A stretch of DNA of 33,764 nt from a virus, in IMG/VR virus record IMGVR_UViG_3300028114_000053, positions 1 to 33,764 of that record. One strand, 5' to 3'. A program made the translations under genes and the position numbers. The notes under the pieces are model-generated. The model was not told the DNA's origin. It worked only from the letters and a program-made list of their open reading frames with translations, and searched no databases. Positions 3,188 through 22,557 of this stretch are shown here, one piece after another (position 1 is the stretch's first letter; each line of letters starts with the position of its first letter).

Positions 3188-3458
3188 GAACAAGGCGCTT
3201 ACGATTAGTTTCCTCAATGCCCTCGGATACAACGATAGCCAAATCAAATGTGCTATCACCTTATGGACCCGTGAGAGCAGGTTTGACCACCTCGCAGACA
3301 ACAAGCGATCAACAGCTTACGGAATTGCTCAACTCCTTGGAGAACGTAGTAGCCAGCCTGAATTACAAATCCTTCGAGGCGTACGATACGTTGAACATCG
3401 CTATCGAGGCAGTTTCTGCAGCAGTCTCCGCCACTCAGACCAAAAGGGTTGGTACTGA
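3042..3458 (+). CDS. Secreted lytic transglycosylase (SLT-like), 138 aa
   Basis: Likely cleaves peptidoglycan glycan strands outside the membrane. The N terminus has a Lys-rich start and a hydrophobic segment at about residues 5-20 (IGLALTVLLFSAWAYT), a signal peptide or anchor. The domain at about 50-138 carries WTRESRFDHLADN and STAYGIAQLLG, the ExS...AxGxxQ signature of the lysozyme-like SLT fold, with the Glu of RES as candidate catalytic acid. It ends in GWY, a typical terminus of this type. GGAGAAG lies 7 bases before ATG 3042. The first 146 bases overlap the upstream gene in another frame. It is separate from the late lysis cassette, so a role in entry or host-wall remodelling is possible. 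Confidence 0.7.
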   Translation: MKSKGKIGLALTVLLFSAWAYTHEPQVQTILHTPVMQARTKATMEEKRENKALTISFLNALGYNDSQIKCAITLWTRESRFDHLADNKRSTAYGIAQLLGERSSQPELQILRGVRYVEHRYRGSFCSSLRHSDQKGWY

Positions 3459-4655
3459 TGCTGACCGGTGTTAGTTTATTTGCTGGAGTCGGAGGCTTTG
3501 ACCTTGCTATGCAACGACAAGGAGTAAAGGTCGTAGCTAGCGTTGAGATAGATAAGAAGTGCAATGAGGTACTAGCTCAGCACTTCCCTGATGCAACACA
3601 ATTCACAGATGTAACTACAGTTAAGGGAGAGGACCTAATAAATGCAGGATTTAATCCAAGCACAGGAATTATTACAGGAGGATTTCCCTGCCAAGACCTC
3701 AGCGTCGCTGGCAAACGCGCTGGTCTTGCTGGCGCACGAAGCGGGTTATTCTGGGAGATTGCAAGACTTGTGGAAGAAACGCAAACAGAATACTTCATCA
3801 TTGAAAACGTACCTGGTTTGCTATCCAGTAACAAAGGAGCAGATTTTGGAGTCGTCATCGGGACGATGGCCGACATCGGGTATTCTGTCGGATGGCGTGT
3901 GCTTGATGCTCAACACTTCGGAGTACCCCAGCGCAGGCGTCGCGTCTTCATCGTTGGGAGACGTGCTACTAGCGGAGGCGTTGCCGAAATACTCTTTAAG
4001 TCAGAAGGCTTGCGAAGGGATCTTACGCAGGGCCAACAAGCGAGGCAAGACCTTGCCGGAGAAACTGCAAGCAGCTTTGGTCAGACAGGCTTCGCCAAGT
4101 ACACACCAGGAGTAACAACTCTTACAGCTACAACATACAAACGACCTGAAGATAATGTGGTTGTAACTGCATCATCTTTTGGTGGGTATACAGAAGGAGT
4201 AGGCACTCTTCGTGCCAATGGTGGAGATCTAGGTGGAGGAAGTGAGAACCTTGTGGTTCACCAAGAGTAGACGAGCACAGAATGTGGACGACTATGAAAC
4301 CTGGATTGAAGGAGGAGTAATGCCAACGCTAAACCAATTTGATAATGGTGATGTGCGAACGACAGTCATTGTCTTTCACCCTCACTACCACGATGGAGCT
4401 AGAGTACAAGGAGATACAATGAATACACTTACATCACGTATGGGTACAGGTGGGAACAATGTATCTGGTATTGCTACACCAACCAACGTGCGCCGCTTAA
4501 CACCAGTAGAGTGTGAAAGATTGCAGGGTTTCCCTGATGACTGGACTGCTGGACAGTCAGACTCTCATCGTTACAAGCAGATGGGTAATGCAGTAGCTGT
4601 ACCTGTAGTAGAGTGGATCGTGCAGAACATAGTAGATGTGGCTAAGGTTTCCTAA
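3458..4655 (+). CDS. DNA cytosine-C5 methyltransferase, frameshifted
   Basis: Methylates cytosine C5 in DNA. ATG 3458 overlaps the preceding TGA and follows AAAAGGG; a TTG nine bases upstream is less likely. Motifs in order: LFAGVGGFD (SAM binding), GGFPCQDLS with catalytic Cys 78, IIENVPG at 115-120, and VPQRRRRVF. After about codon 266 the frame is lost and stops at 4270. The remaining motifs (RRLTPVECERLQGFP and KQMGNAVAVPVVEWI) continue in the +1 frame to 4655. Skipping one G at 4255-4256 joins ENLV to FTKSRRAQN and gives a complete protein of about 398 aa. The cause may be a sequencing indel, a real inactivation or programmed +1 frameshifting. Probably a solitary phage methyltransferase that evades host restriction. 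Confidence 0.8.
3642..4115 (+). CDS. Overlapping ORF inside methyltransferase gene, 157 aa
   Basis: Lies wholly within the methyltransferase gene in the +1 frame. It has its own AAGGGAGAGG ribosome-binding site 9 bases before ATG 3642. The product contains WPTSGILSDG, CLMLNTSEYPSAG, SSLGDVL and then KYSLSQKACEGILRRANKRG. From memory these resemble a phage protein family with WPxSG...LNTSE...LSPKAxxGILRRAxxRGKxLP that is found with phage methyltransferases. If so, both frames are translated and conserved. It may instead be a frame artefact imposed by methyltransferase codons. No function is known to me. Confidence 0.4.
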   Translation: MQDLIQAQELLQEDFPAKTSASLANALVLLAHEAGYSGRLQDLWKKRKQNTSSLKTYLVCYPVTKEQILESSSGRWPTSGILSDGVCLMLNTSEYPSAGVASSSLGDVLLAEALPKYSLSQKACEGILRRANKRGKTLPEKLQAALVRQASPSTHQE

Positions 4656-5268: not shown

Positions 5269-5897
5269 TGCCAGGGACTAACCCCGCCAAGATTATCCTG
5301 CAATCTACGCAAAGACTGAGCGCACCTACGATCTGCGGTAGAGATAGCACATTCTAGGACTTGTGCTATCTGTTGCAGGGTGAAGCTCTCGTGGTGGCGC
5401 ATACGAAGGATAGACTGGTCCTCTTGGTCTAGTTTAAGAAAGCCATTCTTGATGTCAATGAGGTTAGCAAGTAGGTTGCCACCTTCTGCTGGAGAGGATG
5501 AACCTTTAGGTTGCCCATCTCTAATCATCTCTTGTGCCTGCTCTAATACTGTGCCATCTATGACTGATGCAATAACAAAGGGTAGCAACTGACCAAGCGT
5601 TGCTGACTCGTAGTAAGCCTCATCATTAGTCTGATAGCCAGACTTAGCAGCCTTCTCTTTACGAGCATAGCGTTCTGCTACACGCCTCATCTGCCAGGCA
5701 ATGCGTTGCTCGTTGTGTTTGCGTCGCTCTTCGATAGGTTCCATTAGATCTATTATGTGATCTTCAACCCTAGTCATAGCCCAAGCCATTAACTCTTGCT
5801 TGATGTCATCCTTTTCAACATAGGCTTTATACCTACGATGAATAGTGTTAGCAACGCTAGGTACCAAGTCATAGATTACTGGGTGTAGTTCAGTCAT
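5265..5897 (-). CDS. Sigma-70-like / HTH transcription factor, 210 aa
   Basis: Residues 1-85 are helical and basic, as in region 2-like segments (VEKDDIKQELMAWAMTRVED). Residues 150-200 carry LDQEDQSILRMRHHESFTLQQIAQVL followed by a basic recognition helix (STADRRCAQSLRRL), typical of sigma region 4 or ECF-type HTH. It overlaps the methyltransferase upstream by 8 bases and the nuclease downstream by 4. It may redirect host RNA polymerase to late phage promoters. I see no consensus promoters to support a specific regulon. It might alternatively be a small-terminase-like HTH protein. Confidence 0.55.
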   Translation of the reverse strand: MTELHPVIYDLVPSVANTIHRRYKAYVEKDDIKQELMAWAMTRVEDHIIDLMEPIEERRKHNEQRIAWQMRRVAERYARKEKAAKSGYQTNDEAYYESATLGQLLPFVIASVIDGTVLEQAQEMIRDGQPKGSSSPAEGGNLLANLIDIKNGFLKLDQEDQSILRMRHHESFTLQQIAQVLECAISTADRRCAQSLRRLQDNLGGVSPWQ

Positions 5898-6561
5898 TTG
5901 TAATCCTCTGTTGAGCGATAGCGTGATACTCTGCGTCCATCTCTATACCTATAAAGTTACGATTTAATTCCTTACAAGCCAACGCTGTAGTTCCTGAACC
6001 CATAAATGGGTCTATTATTGTGTAATCAGGTGGCAAAATACCAACAATTCTCTTCATAACTTCTAAAGGCATTTGACAAGGGTGAGCAGTCTTGTCTTTA
6101 GATACGTTTTTAACTTGGTTTATTTCCCACCAATCATAAAGCCTTGCAGTTTTACCATCTGCAATTCTTTGCATAATTCTTTTATCTGTAGGGTTTTTAT
6201 ATGGTTGCCCATATTGTTTGAAGTCAGGCTTAATGCCAAAGAATGCTATGTCTCTGTGCTGCTTTGCAGTGTTGGAGTTATATACCCAACTGACAACTTT
6301 CTCAGGAAACTCACCAACCTGAAAAGCAATCTTGTAAATCTCTTCAGGATAATGAATAACTACAAATGGACCATATTGGAATACAGATGCAAGCATTTCG
6401 TAATACTCTGTTGAGTCCATATTATCTTTATAGCTGTTGTAATGGTAGCCCACGTTAAAAGGTGGGTCAGTAACAATTACAAACTTCTTTTCTTGTACAT
6501 TTATCTTAGGTAGTTCTTCTAAACAGTTACCTAATATCAATTTGCTTTTAAGTTCAGTCAC
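5890..6561 (-). CDS. DNA N6-adenine / N4-cytosine methyltransferase
   Basis: Transfers a methyl group to an exocyclic amine in DNA. The catalytic motif DPPF is at residues 32-35, followed by a variable region and HPCQMP at 160-165. The SAM-binding motif DPFMGSGTT is at 184-192, with FIGIEMD downstream. The catalytic motif precedes the SAM motif, which is the beta-class order. At 223 aa it is a complete small member. The ATG overlaps the preceding gene by 8 bases. No partner restriction enzyme is evident, although the putative nuclease two genes downstream could be considered. Confidence 0.85.
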   Translation of the reverse strand: MTELKSKLILGNCLEELPKINVQEKKFVIVTDPPFNVGYHYNSYKDNMDSTEYYEMLASVFQYGPFVVIHYPEEIYKIAFQVGEFPEKVVSWVYNSNTAKQHRDIAFFGIKPDFKQYGQPYKNPTDKRIMQRIADGKTARLYDWWEINQVKNVSKDKTAHPCQMPLEVMKRIVGILPPDYTIIDPFMGSGTTALACKELNRNFIGIEMDAEYHAIAQQRITND

Positions 6562-8584: not shown

Positions 8585-8792
8585 CTACCAATACAACCTT
8601 GTTGATCTTATAGATGACATTGCCTTCTTCATCTTTAACTAATTCGACAACACCAGATTGCAGCAGCGCACCAACGAAGTTGGTTAGGTCTACCTTGATG
8701 GCATCAAGTTCTACACGTAGTGCATTACCAGCATCACGCACTGCATCAATCCTTAGATTATCTCTGTATTTATTTGATAACTGTTCAGACAT
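8562..8792 (-). CDS. Hypothetical protein, 76 aa
   Basis: The frame is open to 8816, but ATG 8792 has AAGGAGGG about 5 bases upstream and is the likely start. The product begins MSEQLSNKYRDNLRIDAVRD, with a central helix (LRVELDAIKVDLTNFVGALL) and a short beta tail (NVIYKINKVVLV). It sits between the helicase and nuclease genes. It could be a small DNA-metabolism accessory protein, but no family is recognised. Confidence 0.6.
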   Translation of the reverse strand: MSEQLSNKYRDNLRIDAVRDAGNALRVELDAIKVDLTNFVGALLQSGVVELVKDEEGNVIYKINKVVLVDESVQQD

Positions 8793-9633
8793 TATACCCT
8801 CCTTGGTATCCTGCAATCGTATCTTTCCTTAGCATCCAACCAAACTCGTTCTGGTCAGATATCTGTACTGCTGCGTAGTTTACCAGTAGCTGTGCGTATT
8901 TGCTTCCGTCTGCAGTGTGTGCTCCAAAGCGATTCTTAACTGGTGCCACTTTCAGTATTCCTTGCGTTGGGTCATAGCCCAGTGTAAGTATCAGTGCAGG
9001 TAACTGACTGACCTTTCCGTGAATTGCTCTGCGATGAGGTGGGTTACTAGGTGACCCATACTCTGACTGTTCTGATACGTGGTGGAGTACTAGTACACAG
9101 GCTTCAGTCTTACGTGCCATATCGTGTAGCTCCATCATAATTGCTCTCAGTCCTGCCCATTCGTTGTCTGTCTCAGCAGTAATATTCATTAAGTTATCAA
9201 TGACTATCAACTCAGGTGCTTGTCCAAAGAGTTCAACGTAGGCCCTGATCTCTAACTCCAAGTCGTCAATGTTTGGAGATGAATCAAAGACCCACTTGAT
9301 GTGTGAAAGTTTGTCTAAGTGTGCATTGTAGTACTTACTATCGTTAGAAAGGTTTGCCTCTACTGTCACTTGTGAGTGACCAGATAGATGCGATACAGAC
9401 CTCATCATTACAGTAGCGGTATCAGTATCTGCGGAGAAGAAAAGTGTAGGAACCTTAGCCTTGATTGCATAGATCAGAGCGAACATAGACTTACCAGCAT
9501 TAGGTGCTGCAGCTACCATACATACCTGGCCTCTGCGAAACTTAATACCTTCTGCCTTCAACCCATCCCACACATCAGGTAGTGGTGTTGCTTTGGTAAG
9601 CACTCCACTCCAAGCGCGGGAAAGATTAAGCAA
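8785..9633 (-). CDS. RecA/DnaB-like replicative ATPase (helicase)
   Basis: 282 aa. Walker A AAPNAGKS is at 42-49, SADTD at 67-71, Walker B LIVIDN at 142-147, and a later VLVLHH segment marks the RecA-fold sensor region. It resembles the C-terminal ATPase domain of DnaB/RadA-type helicases without an N-terminal primase-binding domain. It begins with TTG at 9633, preceded by AGGAG with a 7-base spacer, and overlaps the WhiB gene by 8 bases. With the downstream primase halves it probably forms the replisome core. A recombinase-like role is the alternative. Confidence 0.75.
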   Translation of the reverse strand: MLNLSRAWSGVLTKATPLPDVWDGLKAEGIKFRRGQVCMVAAAPNAGKSMFALIYAIKAKVPTLFFSADTDTATVMMRSVSHLSGHSQVTVEANLSNDSKYYNAHLDKLSHIKWVFDSSPNIDDLELEIRAYVELFGQAPELIVIDNLMNITAETDNEWAGLRAIMMELHDMARKTEACVLVLHHVSEQSEYGSPSNPPHRRAIHGKVSQLPALILTLGYDPTQGILKVAPVKNRFGAHTADGSKYAQLLVNYAAVQISDQNEFGWMLRKDTIAGYQGGYNV

Positions 9634-9901
9634 CGTCGTTCTCCTGATTCAATGTAAGGCCTCGTTGACTTCTGATCTGTTGGCGTTGTCTAATAGTTAG
9701 ACCACCCCAGATGCCGAAGTATTCTTTGGTTATTCCCCACTCAGCACATTCTCTGCGATGGGGACATCTATTACATATACCTACTGCAAATTTAGCATCA
9801 TCAACTGATACTTCTTTATTGCCAGTAGATACATCTGGAAACCAGAAGTCACCACCGATTGTTGCACAACTAGGAGCTTCGTATTGACTTGGCTCCCGCA
9901 T
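9626..9901 (-). CDS. WhiB-family iron-sulfur transcription factor
   Basis: 91 aa with the four cluster-ligand cysteines C12, C43, C46 and C52 and the GIWGG turn at 63-67, followed by a basic C terminus (RQRQQIRSQRG) for DNA contact. WhiB proteins are restricted to actinobacteria and their phages. They bind a 4Fe-4S cluster and act with the host sigma factor. In phage TM4 a WhiB protein affects host gene expression and superinfection. Here it lies inside the replication operon, 3 bases after the upstream gene, without an obvious ribosome-binding site, so it is probably translationally coupled. Confidence 0.9.
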   Translation of the reverse strand: MREPSQYEAPSCATIGGDFWFPDVSTGNKEVSVDDAKFAVGICNRCPHRRECAEWGITKEYFGIWGGLTIRQRQQIRSQRGLTLNQENDVA

Positions 9902-9904
9902 TTG

Positions 9905-10294
9905 TCATCGAACCCAGATAGTGTCGCACTTATCTGGCGCACCCTTGGGTGCTGCACACATATAACCTGACCACGGACCCTTTTGTCCTACACCTGAACG
10001 TAGTGACATCTGACCGTGCTTACATACATTACCGCCACCTGCTGGTGGATTAGCGCGATCATCTAATGAATGCACTGGTGTTGCATTAAAAGACTGTGCT
10101 ACTGCTGCAACTGTTGGTGCAGCTTGCGCTGGTACTCCACCTAGTTCTTTTCCCGTTGACTTAATAAGTGTTGCAACCATAGATAGATCTGTAAGACCAG
10201 TCTCTAGTTCCTTAACATCTGCTGCGTAAAGATTGATGAGTGTTCCATCATTCAACTTGTAGTTGATCTGATACTTAGTTCCTTCTGTAGCCAT
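9905..10294 (-). CDS. Phage protein with C-terminal Cys/His motif, 129 aa
   Basis: GGAGG precedes ATG 10294. The N-terminal 60 residues look like a small beta/alpha domain (YQINYKLNDGTLINLYAAD), followed by an Ala/Pro/Gly-rich linker. The C-terminal module is CKHGQM...GYMCAAPKGAPDKCDTIWVR, a C-x2-H...C...C set likely to bind zinc. From memory this tail recurs in actinophage proteins next to Cas4-like nucleases. A ssDNA-binding or nuclease-partner role is plausible but unproven. Confidence 0.6.
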   Translation of the reverse strand: MATEGTKYQINYKLNDGTLINLYAADVKELETGLTDLSMVATLIKSTGKELGGVPAQAAPTVAAVAQSFNATPVHSLDDRANPPAGGGNVCKHGQMSLRSGVGQKGPWSGYMCAAPKGAPDKCDTIWVR

Positions 10295-11242
10295 TTACTT
10301 GCCTCCACTTTGTTTTACGGATAGTCGCTGACTCTCAGCTCCTACCTTCTTAGGGACAAACCCTAATAGTTTTTCTACCTCGTCACTGTCAACTGACTCG
10401 CGCCCTTTAACAGTTGTCCAACTGAGTTCTATACCAGAATTAGTAGTACCCATTACTCCTTCAAAGGATGCCTTCAAAGAATCCTGTTGTGTTTCTAACT
10501 CTTTAATCTGTGCTGCTAACTGTAGATATAACAGTGCATTCTTGTCAACATCTGCATCTGTAATGATTACATCACTGACTGGTATACGTTCTTTTTTTAG
10601 ACCAACACATCCCATCTGCCCACTTGCGTCATAGAACTTGCAATAGAACTGACAGTAGCTTGCATCTTTTTCTGGTGCTGGTGCTTCCTTTGCTTCCTTA
10701 ACAGCCGCTAGCCAACCGAGTGCTTCTAGTGCAATGGACTCATTGTAGTCTTCGGTGTGAACCTTGACATCTCTTTCGTCCCCGTCCCTGGCAATTGCTA
10801 CCAGTGACACTCGGTTGACCGCATAGCCGTTGTTAGCTAGGAGGTAGCCGTATAGCTGCACCTGCCACCGTTGTTGATTGGTTGGAAAGTAAGAAAGGTT
10901 CCGGACCTTACTTGTCTTCCAGTCAATCACATCACCAGTACCAGGTACGAAACAGTCAATGTGTGCTTTCATTCCGTTGTATTCAACTTCTGTTTCAATC
11001 AGCACATCTGGATTATCTGCTAGTGCTCTTTCAATTTCTGCGTGGATAGCAGTACCCATAATCGCAGCGAGCTTTAGTTCGTTGTCATTAGTTTCAGGTT
11101 GATCGTTAAGTCGGTACCACACCTTACGACGACAGCCACCTACTTCTGATGGACCAATCTGTACTTGTGTAGATCGTGAACGCTTAGCATCACCTGCACG
11201 TAGTGCAGTTAGTAATAGTTCCTTTGGATCAGTTACTGTCAT
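10295..11242 (-). CDS. Cas4/RecB-like PD-(D/E)XK exonuclease with Fe-S cysteines
   Basis: 315 aa. The frame is open to 11299, but the TTG there lacks a ribosome-binding site and the upstream gene ends at 11229, so ATG 11242 is chosen. Motifs: G63TAIH67, IDCF with D96, DVIDWKT with D107 and K109, and QVQLYGYLL. Cysteines C37, C197, C201 and C212 fit the 4Fe-4S arrangement of Cas4/AddB nucleases. Likely a 5'-3' DNA end-processing exonuclease in phage recombination. No other CRISPR component is present, so it should not be read as an adaptation gene. Confidence 0.8.
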   Translation of the reverse strand: MTVTDPKELLLTALRAGDAKRSRSTQVQIGPSEVGGCRRKVWYRLNDQPETNDNELKLAAIMGTAIHAEIERALADNPDVLIETEVEYNGMKAHIDCFVPGTGDVIDWKTSKVRNLSYFPTNQQRWQVQLYGYLLANNGYAVNRVSLVAIARDGDERDVKVHTEDYNESIALEALGWLAAVKEAKEAPAPEKDASYCQFYCKFYDASGQMGCVGLKKERIPVSDVIITDADVDKNALLYLQLAAQIKELETQQDSLKASFEGVMGTTNSGIELSWTTVKGRESVDSDEVEKLLGFVPKKVGAESQRLSVKQSGGK

Positions 11243-11381
11243 TGTTAGCCCTGTCGTGTAATAGGAAAGCAAGTCTACACGCTTTCCATCCTTGTTCAAA
11301 CCAATAGTGTGCAGCGTATTCTCCAGTTGCTATAACATCTTTGAACTCTGGTGCTACATAATCGTATGTATTAAACTCCAT
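11229..11381 (-). CDS. Hypothetical protein, 50 aa
   Basis: ATG 11381 overlaps the preceding stop by one base (TAATG) and the end overlaps the nuclease start by 14 bases. The product contains EFNTYDYVAPEFKDVIATG and WFEQGWKACRLAFLLH, an aromatic-rich helix-like sequence that looks genuinely folded. No family is recognised. Confidence 0.5.
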   Translation of the reverse strand: MEFNTYDYVAPEFKDVIATGEYAAHYWFEQGWKACRLAFLLHDRANNDSN

Positions 11382-11485
11382 TAGAACTCCACCCCACACT
11401 CTAAGCAAACCACGGTAGCACTTATGCCATCAGCAAACCATACGTGACCCCAGATCCAGCAACGAATCTTCTTTAACAGTTTCAT
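11381..11485 (-). CDS. Trp/Cys-rich microprotein, 34 aa
   Basis: ATG 11485 overlaps the preceding stop (TAATG). The product has IRCWIWGHVW and then VVCLECGVEF, a C...H...C-x2-C arrangement compatible with a minimal zinc-binding fold. It is similar in style to short actinophage Cys-rich proteins. Translation is supported by the overlaps on both sides. Function unknown. Confidence 0.45.
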   Translation of the reverse strand: MKLLKKIRCWIWGHVWFADGISATVVCLECGVEF

Positions 11486-11616
11486 TAGTATTCAAATCCT
11501 ATGTACCAGAATCCTAGTGACAAATCACAATTCCAATTACTTATTTGGAAACCAATAGCAAAACCACAAACTCTGCCACAAGAAAACCAAACCTTCTTAA
11601 CTATCTTCTTTTCCAT
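11485..11616 (-). CDS. Hypothetical microprotein, 43 aa
   Basis: A strong AGGAGG ribosome-binding site ends 4 bases before ATG 11616. The gene follows the protease gene by 8 bases. The 43-aa product is basic at the N terminus (MEKKIVKKVW), then aromatic with Cys residues (FSCGRVCGFAIGFQISNW). It may be membrane-associated. Function unknown. Confidence 0.5.
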   Translation of the reverse strand: MEKKIVKKVWFSCGRVCGFAIGFQISNWNCDLSLGFWYIGFEY

Positions 11617-11624
11617 AGCTCCTC

Positions 11625-12182
11625 CTAGAACCGTTCTTGGACTACCAACTGTATAGGCTTACCCGTGTTAGCGTCAAGGACCGACGCTATCTCTACTGCC
11701 TTACGTGCGTGTCGCTTGGCATAGGCTAAGTCCATATCAGGTTTGCAGATTGAATACAGGTAGCCAAGAGCAAGCTGGCCCCCACTACCAATACCGTACG
11801 CTCCGTGATTTGCTTGGAAAAAAGAGAGATCACAAGCAATACGAAAGATATTACCGTTAAAAGCAATGAGATAATCGAAGCCACCATCTTTGTCCACCTT
11901 GTTGTAGTCGTAGTTGTTGTCTGTAAATGCTTGGTTAATACTGGGAATGATCTTCTTACCCATAAATTGTGCAGGGTCTTCACCACGATAGAGCGGTGGC
12001 TTCCAGTTGTAGGCAAGGATGTCACCTGGTCGTGTATCACCTGAGATACCGATGAGATACTTACCAACCTCAACGATCTTAGGTGTACTAGTTGCTAACG
12101 TCACGAGATTATCTTCTGTGATTTGAGAATCTGCGACGAGTACTGCATAGTCAATACCCTCAAGCGCTGCGATGGTTGTCAT
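11625..12182 (-). CDS. Proteasome beta-like / HslV-like Ntn-hydrolase peptidase
   Basis: 185 aa from ATG 12182. Removal of the initiator Met exposes Thr1 (TTIAALEG), the nucleophile of proteasome beta subunits. Asp17 (ADSQ), Lys34 (STPKIVEVG, canonical Lys33), GSGG at 131-134 and Asp169 (LDANTG) match the family's catalytic and structural residues. No alpha subunit or unfoldase is encoded nearby. It could self-assemble, or join or poison the host proteasome. A longer in-frame GTG start at 12230 would add a 16-residue prosegment ending in Met, not the usual Gly before Thr. A TAACAT -10 exactly 7 bases upstream of ATG 12182 favours a leaderless start. First gene of the replication operon. Confidence 0.8.
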   Translation of the reverse strand: MTTIAALEGIDYAVLVADSQITEDNLVTLATSTPKIVEVGKYLIGISGDTRPGDILAYNWKPPLYRGEDPAQFMGKKIIPSINQAFTDNNYDYNKVDKDGGFDYLIAFNGNIFRIACDLSFFQANHGAYGIGSGGQLALGYLYSICKPDMDLAYAKRHARKAVEIASVLDANTGKPIQLVVQERF

Positions 12183-12189
12183 AGGTGGA

Positions 12190-12254
12190 ATGTTATCACT
12201 GGGTATCGGCGTGTCGTCGCATAGCGACACATACTAGGCGCTATAATTCGAGCC
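12190..12254. promoter_or_regulatory. Divergent leaderless promoters with shared palindrome
   Basis: On the plus strand TATAAT (12242-12247) ends 7 bases before GTG 12255. On the minus strand TAACAT (12195-12190) ends 7 bases before ATG 12182, with ACGACA 16 bases upstream as a possible -35. Seven bases from -10 to start codon is the spacing of actinobacterial leaderless mRNAs, and neither gene has a ribosome-binding site. The inverted repeat GTGTCG-N8-CGACAC (12211-12230) covers the -35 area of both promoters and may be an operator. Confidence 0.6.
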
Positions 12255-12569
12255 GTGAGGCGAGATAAACAGGACAGGCGACCCTTTGGGGGTCGCAGCA
12301 GTAACCGTACAGTAACCCTGTCGGTCCGTCTACCAACCCTGCCATCGTTTAGATGGCGCAGGAATGCCCTTCCTAAGCCCTTTGGGACCGATCTGCGGGG
12401 TTTAGGACCACTTCACGTGTGTCCGTGTGGCTCTCAGGTTTTTAGCGTTATGGCCAGCTTTGAAGACTACGAGCTGGTTTGGTACTTCCTTGATGCTACC
12501 TGTGTCAACTGCGGTAATCTGGTAGTTGTCCCCTGTCCAGTAGATAAAGATGCAGCACAAACTCAGTAA
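12255..12569 (+). CDS. Zinc-ribbon phage protein, 104 aa
   Basis: Begins with GTG immediately downstream of a perfect TATAAT and is predicted to be leaderless. The N-terminal 45 residues are basic and Arg/Pro-rich. Residues about 54-95 form a zinc ribbon, HVCPCGSQVF...CVNCGNLV, with C-x-C and C-x2-C pairs around an acidic middle (SFEDYELVWYF). The module recurs, from memory, in actinophages. Possible nucleic-acid or RNA-polymerase binding is inferred only from the fold. Its end overlaps the HNH gene by 20 bases. Confidence 0.65.
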   Translation: MRRDKQDRRPFGGRSSNRTVTLSVRLPTLPSFRWRRNALPKPFGTDLRGLGPLHVCPCGSQVFSVMASFEDYELVWYFLDATCVNCGNLVVVPCPVDKDAAQTQ

Positions 12570-12900
12570 CTATAACGAAGAAGAACGCACTGCCACGTGC
12601 TCTATTTGTGGCCCCACTAAGATCAAGCTACGAGATAAGAACAACCCACTGACTAGTAGGTATCGCTGTCGCACAGTATGGAAGCGTAACTACAACAACA
12701 CTATCTATCCATACGCTAGACATAAAGGCACAGAATGTCAACAGTGTGGGTTTGTACCAGAACACATCTCTCAGTTAGATGTAGACCACATAGACGGTGA
12801 CCGGTGGAATAATGAGCCACACAATCTACAGACCTTGTGTGCTAACTGCCACCGGCTAAAGACTCACCTATCAGGGGACAGTAACTCTGGCATATTTTAG
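12550..12900 (+). CDS. HNH endonuclease, 116 aa
   Basis: A DNA endonuclease of the His-Cys/HNH type. After an N-terminal CSICG ribbon-like element, CQQCG at about 58-62 pairs with CANCH near residue 97 as structural zinc ligands. LDVDHIDGDRWNNEPHNLQT carries the catalytic His and Asn of the HNH core. It could be a free-standing homing endonuclease or a packaging-associated nuclease. It is not next to a visible terminase, so homing or replication use is equally possible. It overlaps the zinc-ribbon gene and ends just before a terminator. Confidence 0.8.
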   Translation: MQHKLSNYNEEERTATCSICGPTKIKLRDKNNPLTSRYRCRTVWKRNYNNTIYPYARHKGTECQQCGFVPEHISQLDVDHIDGDRWNNEPHNLQTLCANCHRLKTHLSGDSNSGIF

Positions 12901-19350: not shown

Positions 19351-20253
19351 TTAACGGGTATAGTGGATTCTTATCGGATACTTATCTGCCAACTTCAACG
19401 CTTCTTCATTAAGTCTCTGTTGGTAAAGAGCAAAGATGTAACGAGATGCTGCAGCACCTGCCGATGATGGCAACTTGGAATCGTTTAGATCGGCCTCAGC
19501 ACTAGAGAGATTGATTCGTCCAGCGTCAAGGTAAGACAGTAACTTGTATGATGCTCCGAGTACGACAACATCCTTACAAGAATCAGGTAGACCAGATACG
19601 TCAGCAAAATCATCTGTGTTGGCATCAAGGGTGTTTGGCGTGGCTGTGTACCAAACCTGAATAGTACGACCAGGTTGTACGTTCTCATAGATGTTAAGTG
19701 TATTGTTTGTGTTAAAGGTAGCAGCATTAGCCATACCATCTAAGCGCCAGCGATTTACTGGTAGCCATTCCTGGCTAGAACCTGTTGTCTGCCAAGAGAT
19801 AAATAGGACACCTTCAACATCATCTGGTAGTGGGTATGTAACTTGAGATGCGTTAAAGGTAAATGTGTAAGAGTTAATAATCCAGAGTTTAGGATAGAAA
19901 CTGTTGATCGTATCGTTGATAGCCTTCTTGATAGAGTTACGTGGGAAGGTTGGAGATAGAGTTACTGGTGCATACTGTGCGTGAGGCGATGCTGTAGTTC
20001 CCTGATATCCACGACCAAAGCCTGGAATAACGTTTAACTGATTGTTAGCCTTATCAAAGGAATCAATCCAGATAAGTTCATCATCAATTTCGATAATACC
20101 TTTGGCAAGGTTAGATGCAGAGCCAACGGTAATCTCTGTGCTAGTAGTGGTTAGTCCACTAGGGTTAGCAACAAATGTAATGCGGTCTTGACGCAACGCA
20201 TAACCTTGTAGGTTAGCCTTTACTTCATCAACCAGTTCGTTCAGTGTTGGCAT
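19351..20253 (-). CDS. Tail tube/adaptor-like protein, 300 aa
   Basis: The N terminus is helical (TLNELVDEVKANLQGYALRQ), followed by a beta module with EITVGSASNLAKGIIEID and DELIWIDSF, then NSIKKAINDTINSFYPKLWI. The C-terminal half is helical (LSSAEADLNDSKLPSSAGAA) and ends KYPIRIHYTR. The mixed layout after the capsid genes is like head-tail adaptors or tail-tube proteins of short-tailed phages. Identification is by context and is not firm. It shares its start with the end of the glycosyltransferase gene. Confidence 0.5.
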   Translation of the reverse strand: MPTLNELVDEVKANLQGYALRQDRITFVANPSGLTTTSTEITVGSASNLAKGIIEIDDELIWIDSFDKANNQLNVIPGFGRGYQGTTASPHAQYAPVTLSPTFPRNSIKKAINDTINSFYPKLWIINSYTFTFNASQVTYPLPDDVEGVLFISWQTTGSSQEWLPVNRWRLDGMANAATFNTNNTLNIYENVQPGRTIQVWYTATPNTLDANTDDFADVSGLPDSCKDVVVLGASYKLLSYLDAGRINLSSAEADLNDSKLPSSAGAAASRYIFALYQQRLNEEALKLADKYPIRIHYTR

Positions 20254-21314
20254 TATTTCCTCTCATACCAGCCATCTCCCCATAGAGTTAGCAGTCGTGC
20301 AAAGTACTGTTCATATTGTGGTGCTATAGCATCTAGTGAATACAGACCTACTGCCCTTTTATGTATTGCTACTGGGTCTAAACTCTTAACCCACTCTGTT
20401 GCTACTGCAAACTCCATTGCATTTCTGCAACGATACCCAGTAACACCCTGTGGATTAGTTTCTGTAAATGCTCCCCAGTCTGTGGTAATCGTTGGAGTAC
20501 CGCAGGCTTGTGCTTCGATAACAACGTTACCGAAAGGTTCTATGTATAGCGTTGGTGCAAATAAGGCGATAGCACCGCCCATTAACTTTGCTCGCTCTTT
20601 GGGACCAACTGGTCCTACCCATTCGCCATACTCAATCTTTGGGTCTTTACCAGGTCCTGCCATAATCAACTTCAAGCCCATCTCTTTACAGACGTGCTGA
20701 GCAATTCCAATACCTTTGCGATCTACCATACGTCCTACGTAGAGGTAGTAATCTTCTTTCTTTTCTTGCAATGGAAACATCTCAGGTTCTAAGTATCCTG
20801 GGATTACCGCATCATAGAAGTTACCATCTACTAGCGTTGGGTTCTTAAACATTGCATAGATACTGTGCATCCAAGCGTAAGATTCAAACACCTTAAACTT
20901 ACTAAATACTCCACCATAACCCACACCAAACTCTACGCTAATGTGGTTTGGGTAAGCCTTAGCAATAGGTTCTTGACTTGCTCCACCGATAAGACAGATA
21001 AAGTCTTTCTTCTCTAGGCGCTTGCCTAGTTCTTCGATAGCCTTACCATTAAAGATCTGCCAGTGAGGTAATGAGTTATTAAACTCAGCCTCTGTAAAGT
21101 GCTTACCAGCTAGAGCTTGCACTTGCTGTTCTTTAGTGATGCAGGTAATCAACTCATCACACGGTGCTTCGTTATCCTCGCTAGCATACAGATAGACCGT
21201 ATGCCCAAGGTTTTTCATCATTATACAAAAGCGTCTAACCTTTTCGGTATAGGCGCAGTTGACGTAATCTTTAGTTGTCTGTGTATGTGGCAGGCTAATA
21301 ACGTGGAATCTCAT
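20253..21314 (-). CDS. Glycosyltransferase (GT4-like), 353 aa
   Basis: A GT-B enzyme transferring a sugar from an activated nucleotide donor. The C-terminal half carries [26 protein letters not shown] and [18 protein letters not shown], the last with the E-x7-E motif of family GT4. The N-terminal half is a Rossmann-like acceptor domain. At 353 aa it is a normal length. It sits in the late structural operon 9 bases after the collagen-like gene. This suggests glycosylation of a virion protein rather than host-wall metabolism, but the acceptor is not known. Confidence 0.8.
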
Positions 21315-21323
21315 AGAAGGATT

Positions 21324-22557
<1,234 letters not shown>

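Follow-up and report, generated by a model that had tools for sequence, protein, structure and literature searches.

A predicted proteasome-type threonine peptidase of freshwater actinophages from a phage-restricted branch

Organization of the locus and predicted promoter

The stretch of viral DNA analyzed here (33,764 nucleotides, referred to as the window) carries on its minus strand a single intact ORF at 12182–11625, with its start codon at 12182–12180 and its stop codon at 11627–11625. The encoded protein has 185 residues (184 once Met is removed) and is assigned as an N-terminal threonine peptidase of the proteasome type, based on profile matches, fold, and catalytic residues. Downstream and on the same strand, short coupled ORFs (11300–11614), the first of which has a Shine–Dalgarno sequence (GGAGG) that overlaps the peptidase stop codon, bridge the gap to the operon's next gene, which encodes a Cas4/PD-(D/E)XK nuclease (10295–11299); in some relatives, the nuclease gene directly abuts the peptidase gene. 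These are followed, also on the minus strand, by genes for a mycobacteriophage L5 gp49-like protein (9905–10294), a WhiB regulator (9626–9901), which is a marker of an actinobacterial host (PMC6802176, PMC10202952), and a DnaB-like helicase (8785–9633). No terminator-like site was found between positions 11200 and 12400. Upstream of the peptidase gene, a 104-residue ORF and an HNH endonuclease gene are transcribed divergently (12255–12900, plus strand).

A sequence-only reading of the window had described the peptidase gene as the promoter-proximal gene of a replication operon without an α-subunit or an unfoldase nearby, and both parts of this description hold. The gene is found at the head of the operon in all 39 loci of the window's phage lineage that are anchored by DnaB and have enough sequence, and neither an α-subunit nor a protein unfoldase was recognized among the scanned genes of the window, which is a genome fragment. 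The early operon also contains an N6/N4 DNA methylase gene (5890–6561), which relatives such as G002 and G005 do not have at that position. Elsewhere in the window, a C5-cytosine methyltransferase-like ORF (3449–4655) is seemingly split into overlapping frames (3449–4270 and 4233–4655), and a collagen-like protein with Gly-X-Y repeats is encoded in the tail region (21324–22223), adjoining a glycosyltransferase-like gene (20253–21314).

The region directly upstream of the peptidase gene (12183–12260, minus strand) is a conserved predicted promoter, as judged from consensus and conservation. A −10-like TANNNT motif is found 12–13 nt before the ATG in 63 of 64 distinct upstream regions, a Shine–Dalgarno-like motif is seen in only 15 of the 64, and the ATG–ACN start is kept across all of them. 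From these features and the lack of a prosegment, we infer a leaderless transcript and a first Met that would be removed by methionine aminopeptidase, thereby exposing Thr1. An alternative GTG start, which would add 16 residues (201 residues in total), was rejected; the extension is closed in 48 of the upstream regions and open in 16. The preference of the sequence-only reading for the ATG, with Thr1 exposed without a prosegment, is thus supported by the promoter motif and by the mostly closed extension. Between the divergent genes and upstream of the predicted promoter, there is a conserved inverted repeat (GTGTCGC..GCGACGACAC), whose arms GTCGC and GCGAC show paired changes to GTTGC and GCAAC, and which is likely an operator or a regulatory hairpin.

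Family, predicted fold, and catalytic residues

The window peptidase matches the Pfam Proteasome family (PF00227) with 43.5 bits (E 3.7e-11; cut-off 22.4) and PHROG 1040, annotated as “peptidase HslV family,” with 97 bits (E 2e-27). Scores against curated models of specific subfamilies are far under the respective cut-offs, being 17.6 and 18.8 bits for HslV (equivalog cut-offs 157.75 and 137) and 29.9 bits for the archaeal-type proteasome β-subunit model TIGR03634 (curated cut-off 224). A profile of relatives from which the window's clade had been left out gave 169 bits for the window peptidase; the highest score among 2000 shuffled sequences was 10 bits. When the relatives' profile was compared with the PDB, the β-proteobacterial proteasome homologue (BPH) came first (E 3.9e-13), followed by HslV (E ~4e-12) and, later, by archaeal and eukaryotic β-subunits.

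An AlphaFold model based on the aligned sequences of 35 relatives from phages reached a pLDDT of 91.3 and a pTM of 0.87. The model shows the four-layer αββα fold of the Ntn superfamily, with helices at residues 50–58, 70–88, 135–145, and 152–169 of the 185-residue protein. In a Foldseek search, the top solved structure was BPH (E 6e-12, TM 0.77), followed by HslV and 20S β-subunits, and a second structural comparison (VIA) yielded Z values of about 20 for both 20S β and BPH. The predicted monomer hence lies inside, and not outside, the Ntn superfamily, and the proteasome-β-like peptidase that had been proposed from the letters of the window is borne out by PF00227, PHROG 1040, and the fold matches. 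A viral structure library also contains annotated relatives of the protein.

The residues that the sequence-only reading had named (Thr1, Asp17, Lys34, the GSGG loop, and Asp169) are all located where it had placed them, as shown by a residue check and by the alignment of 35 diverse phage relatives. In Thr1 numbering, the window peptidase has Thr1, Thr2, Asp17, Ser18, Lys34, Gly47, G131–S132–G133–G134, Asp169, and Thr172, meaning that the Thr1/Asp17/Lys33-equivalent triad and the oxyanion Gly47 are all in place. Asp17, Ser18, Lys34, Gly47, Gly131, and Gly133 are found in 35/35 relatives and Thr1 in 34/35, the remaining one having Ser1; Thr or Ser occupies position 172 in 33/35, and Asp169 is present in 26/35. 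Down to ~30% identity, relatives show practically no variation in the triad, Ser18, Gly47, or the two loop glycines, and the peptidase gene has a dN/dS of ~0.05 (versus 79 homologues). Because the catalytic positions are kept and dN/dS is low, the pattern looks like that of an enzyme rather than a decoy. At the level of sequence comparison, the gene is confirmed as a complete and actively maintained gene for a proteasome-type Ntn peptidase. Some relatives (L155–L157) have an MST start, in which Ser1 would replace Thr1 as the nucleophile.

Relation to known proteasome homologues and the host

Phage proteasome homologues, namely PPH (the homologue of phages and their hosts) and AAH, were described in 2021 by Fuchs et al. 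(PMC8665760), and a protein of this general kind is therefore already known. Beyond that study, our search of the literature on phage proteasomes found nothing useful and no biochemical data for any phage member; recognition of virus-encoded proteasome homologues dates back only to 2021, and our search found none that has been characterized.

Relatives of the window peptidase are encoded on >580 viral contig stretches and form well-supported groups, comprising the window's own group, a group from Planktophila-type phages, a group from actinophages of 60–170 kb, in which the gene often lies between metallophosphoesterase and WhiB genes, and smaller ones. In trees, the actinophage-type groups are jointly apart from PPH-like proteins with an MTC start and from cellular BPH and HslV proteins, and their joining has a support of 98/96 in one tree and 87/81 in the other. 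Cellular homologues appear to be distant. Bacterial genomes gave distant matches only, with a single strong match among 84,980 species (L269, in a gammaproteobacterial MAG), which we rejected as a mis-binned actinophage contig carrying WhiB, metallophosphoesterase, and the same phage neighbors; among 299 Pseudomonadota genomes, the best match (62 bits) was BPH-like. Sequence comparison thus places the window peptidase in a branch that appears to be restricted to phages and that occurs in freshwater actinophages.

BPH (PDB 5OVS/5OVU) is the best match by both profile and Foldseek and shares with the window peptidase the Thr1 type, the H1–H4 core, and the absence of a known unfoldase partner. 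However, the identity is only ~23–25%, BPH includes cellular proteins and its double ring has been solved whereas the window peptidase is phage-borne, and BPH groups with cellular proteins opposite the phage sequences (support 100/98), which puts the window peptidase outside the BPH clade. HslV (ClpQ), the second-best profile match, shares the fold, catalytic triad, and GSGG motif, but the window peptidase is phage-encoded, scores far under the HslV cut-offs, and has no HslU nearby. PPH is likewise phage-borne, belongs to group I, lacks a propeptide, and occupies a neighboring branch of the tree, yet the two branches are separate (support 99/96). PPH-like members have an MTC start, lack the Asp169 position, and are at most ~27% identical to the window peptidase; PPH also lacks helix H2 and has about 140 residues (PMC8665760), whereas the window peptidase, as predicted, has H2 and 185 residues. 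AAH, which we compared by its description only, belongs to group I and is reported in many phages, but Fuchs et al. found no Actinobacteria-specific phage with AAH (PMC8665760), whereas the window's branch occurs in actinophages. This branch may either represent such AAH-bearing actinophages or be a further branch of group I.

Members of the same branch occur in isolated actinophages, namely Actinomycetia phage DSL-LC01 (WJZ48484.1) and Planktophila phages E7 and F5, with 32–34% identity and with the gene either next to WhiB or following the portal gene. The latter two phages (LanE43AprE7 and AprF5; OX376640/OX376641) were the first phages to be isolated on “Ca. Nanopelagicales” (PMC10202952). 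The virion set of the window's lineage is shared with E7 and F5 (portal 51% and major capsid protein (MCP) 43% identity) and the window has a WhiB gene, so that the host is likely an actinobacterium, probably of the Nanopelagicales.

Such a host bears on one proposal of the sequence-only reading, namely that the peptidase could cap, replace, or poison the host 20S proteasome, where replacement would concern its β-subunits. The 20S proteasome occurs in the phylum to which WhiB and the isolation of related phages on “Ca. Planktophila” point; for proteasomes of Nanopelagicales themselves, no literature was found. Actinobacterial PrcB resembles the window peptidase in fold and Thr1 chemistry. PrcB pairs with PrcA and carries a propeptide, which the window peptidase lacks. 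The best 60 chains matched by the relatives' profile, which ranks BPH and HslV at the top, do not include actinobacterial PrcB. These nearest solved relatives do not pair with α-subunits, and the catalytic site is fully conserved under purifying selection, which would be needless in a poison. Moreover, sister proteins occur in phages of Vibrio, Pseudoalteromonas, and Psychrobacter, hosts that are not known to have a 20S proteasome. Poisoning thus finds no support, and we regard any action on the host 20S proteasome as very improbable.

Position of the gene in related phages and proposed function

In the window's lineage, each of ten contigs (up to 41.9 kb) has one copy of the peptidase gene, and a second copy at the portal slot was looked for but not seen there. 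In Planktophila-type phages, including E7 and F5, a homologue is located 17–96 nt behind the portal gene. This is the classical place for a prohead protease, and a role in capsid maturation, in which the enzyme would cut the scaffold or a precursor of the capsid within the prohead, could explain why the portal slot is occupied in 55 of 64 loci, why three separate peptidase lineages in the tree fill it (including L083/L084 and L562–L569), and why no other protease was recognized among the virion genes scanned. However, the slot is empty in the other nine loci, and the gene lies away from the portal in the window's lineage, so that membership of the head module is seen in the related group only. 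No copy is present in genome G332, which is complete as judged by a 127-bp end repeat, despite portal, MCP, and scaffold proteins that are 86%, 80%, and 65% identical, respectively, and no other protease was recognized among ten of its proteins that were scanned; the peptidase does not, therefore, always accompany this type of capsid. The same virion genes occur in Streptomyces phage Immanuel3, which also lacks the peptidase. Finally, the giant actinophages G023 and G022 have a second, orphan copy (L378:8721–9251 and L379:8794–9327) that is related to the portal-slot lineage and lies away from the head genes, between ThyX/HNH-like and thioredoxin-like genes. A 38.4-kb contig (G013) was not counted as a case of absence because it breaks exactly at the peptidase locus.

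Presence, absence, and relocation among near-identical virions argue against the capsid-protease explanation, and since the slot may be empty, G332 and Immanuel3 have no copy, and orphan copies lie elsewhere, the peptidase is probably not an obligatory prohead protease; we consider this role quite improbable for the window peptidase. Gene distribution instead points to an accessory enzyme whose gene is now core in the window's lineage. Replacement of genes at a fixed place behind the portal is reminiscent of an accessory or counter-defense slot.

We consider it moderately probable that the window gene encodes an active, stand-alone, self-assembling proteasome-type threonine peptidase that is used as an aid to infection; it would not be indispensable for virion assembly because related phages carry the gene elsewhere or not at all. 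Based on the fold and closest relatives, the subunits would assemble into a single or double homo-oligomeric ring of the HslV/BPH type that contains no α-subunits; by this analogy, a ring of its own, which the sequence-only reading had also listed, is likely. Thr1, Asp17, and Lys34 would then cleave unfolded or small proteins during infection, with or without a host AAA+ factor that feeds them in. Because the window's lineage makes the peptidase from the first gene of its replication operon, the substrates would most likely be host or early-phase proteins. For the window peptidase, both proteolysis and its timing are inferred, the latter from operon position only. Two observations weigh against this overall picture: there is no apparent unfoldase partner, and one related group has the gene in a late structural operon. 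The latter is at odds with an exclusively early role, meaning that the earlier suggestion of early action agrees with the gene's position in the window's lineage but not with its position in these relatives.

By itself, the predicted Ntn fold would also be compatible with a non-protease activity, such as that of the ligase connectase, which proves that the fold is capable of it (PMC8665760). The window peptidase could accordingly be a processing enzyme or connectase-like ligase with narrow specificity for one host or phage target, for example in defeating a defense or maturing a phage protein, and the exchange of three lineages in one slot and loss from some genomes look accessory or counter-defense-like. 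We nevertheless think this unlikely, as the two-helix insertion over the active site of connectase is not evident among the elements of the model and there is no candidate substrate.

A broader reading, which we put forward only tentatively, is that the phage-only branch forms a self-sufficient ring that remakes or disarms the host proteome, with a counter-defense-like exchange of lineages in one slot. If true, a phage-only branch of peptidase rings, distinct from PPH and AAH, would serve actinophages of dominant freshwater bacteria. The branch is abundant in freshwater actinophages, and the virus probably infects the commonest lake bacteria. The function is directly testable because relatives of the window peptidase occur in two phages that were isolated on “Ca. 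Planktophila.”
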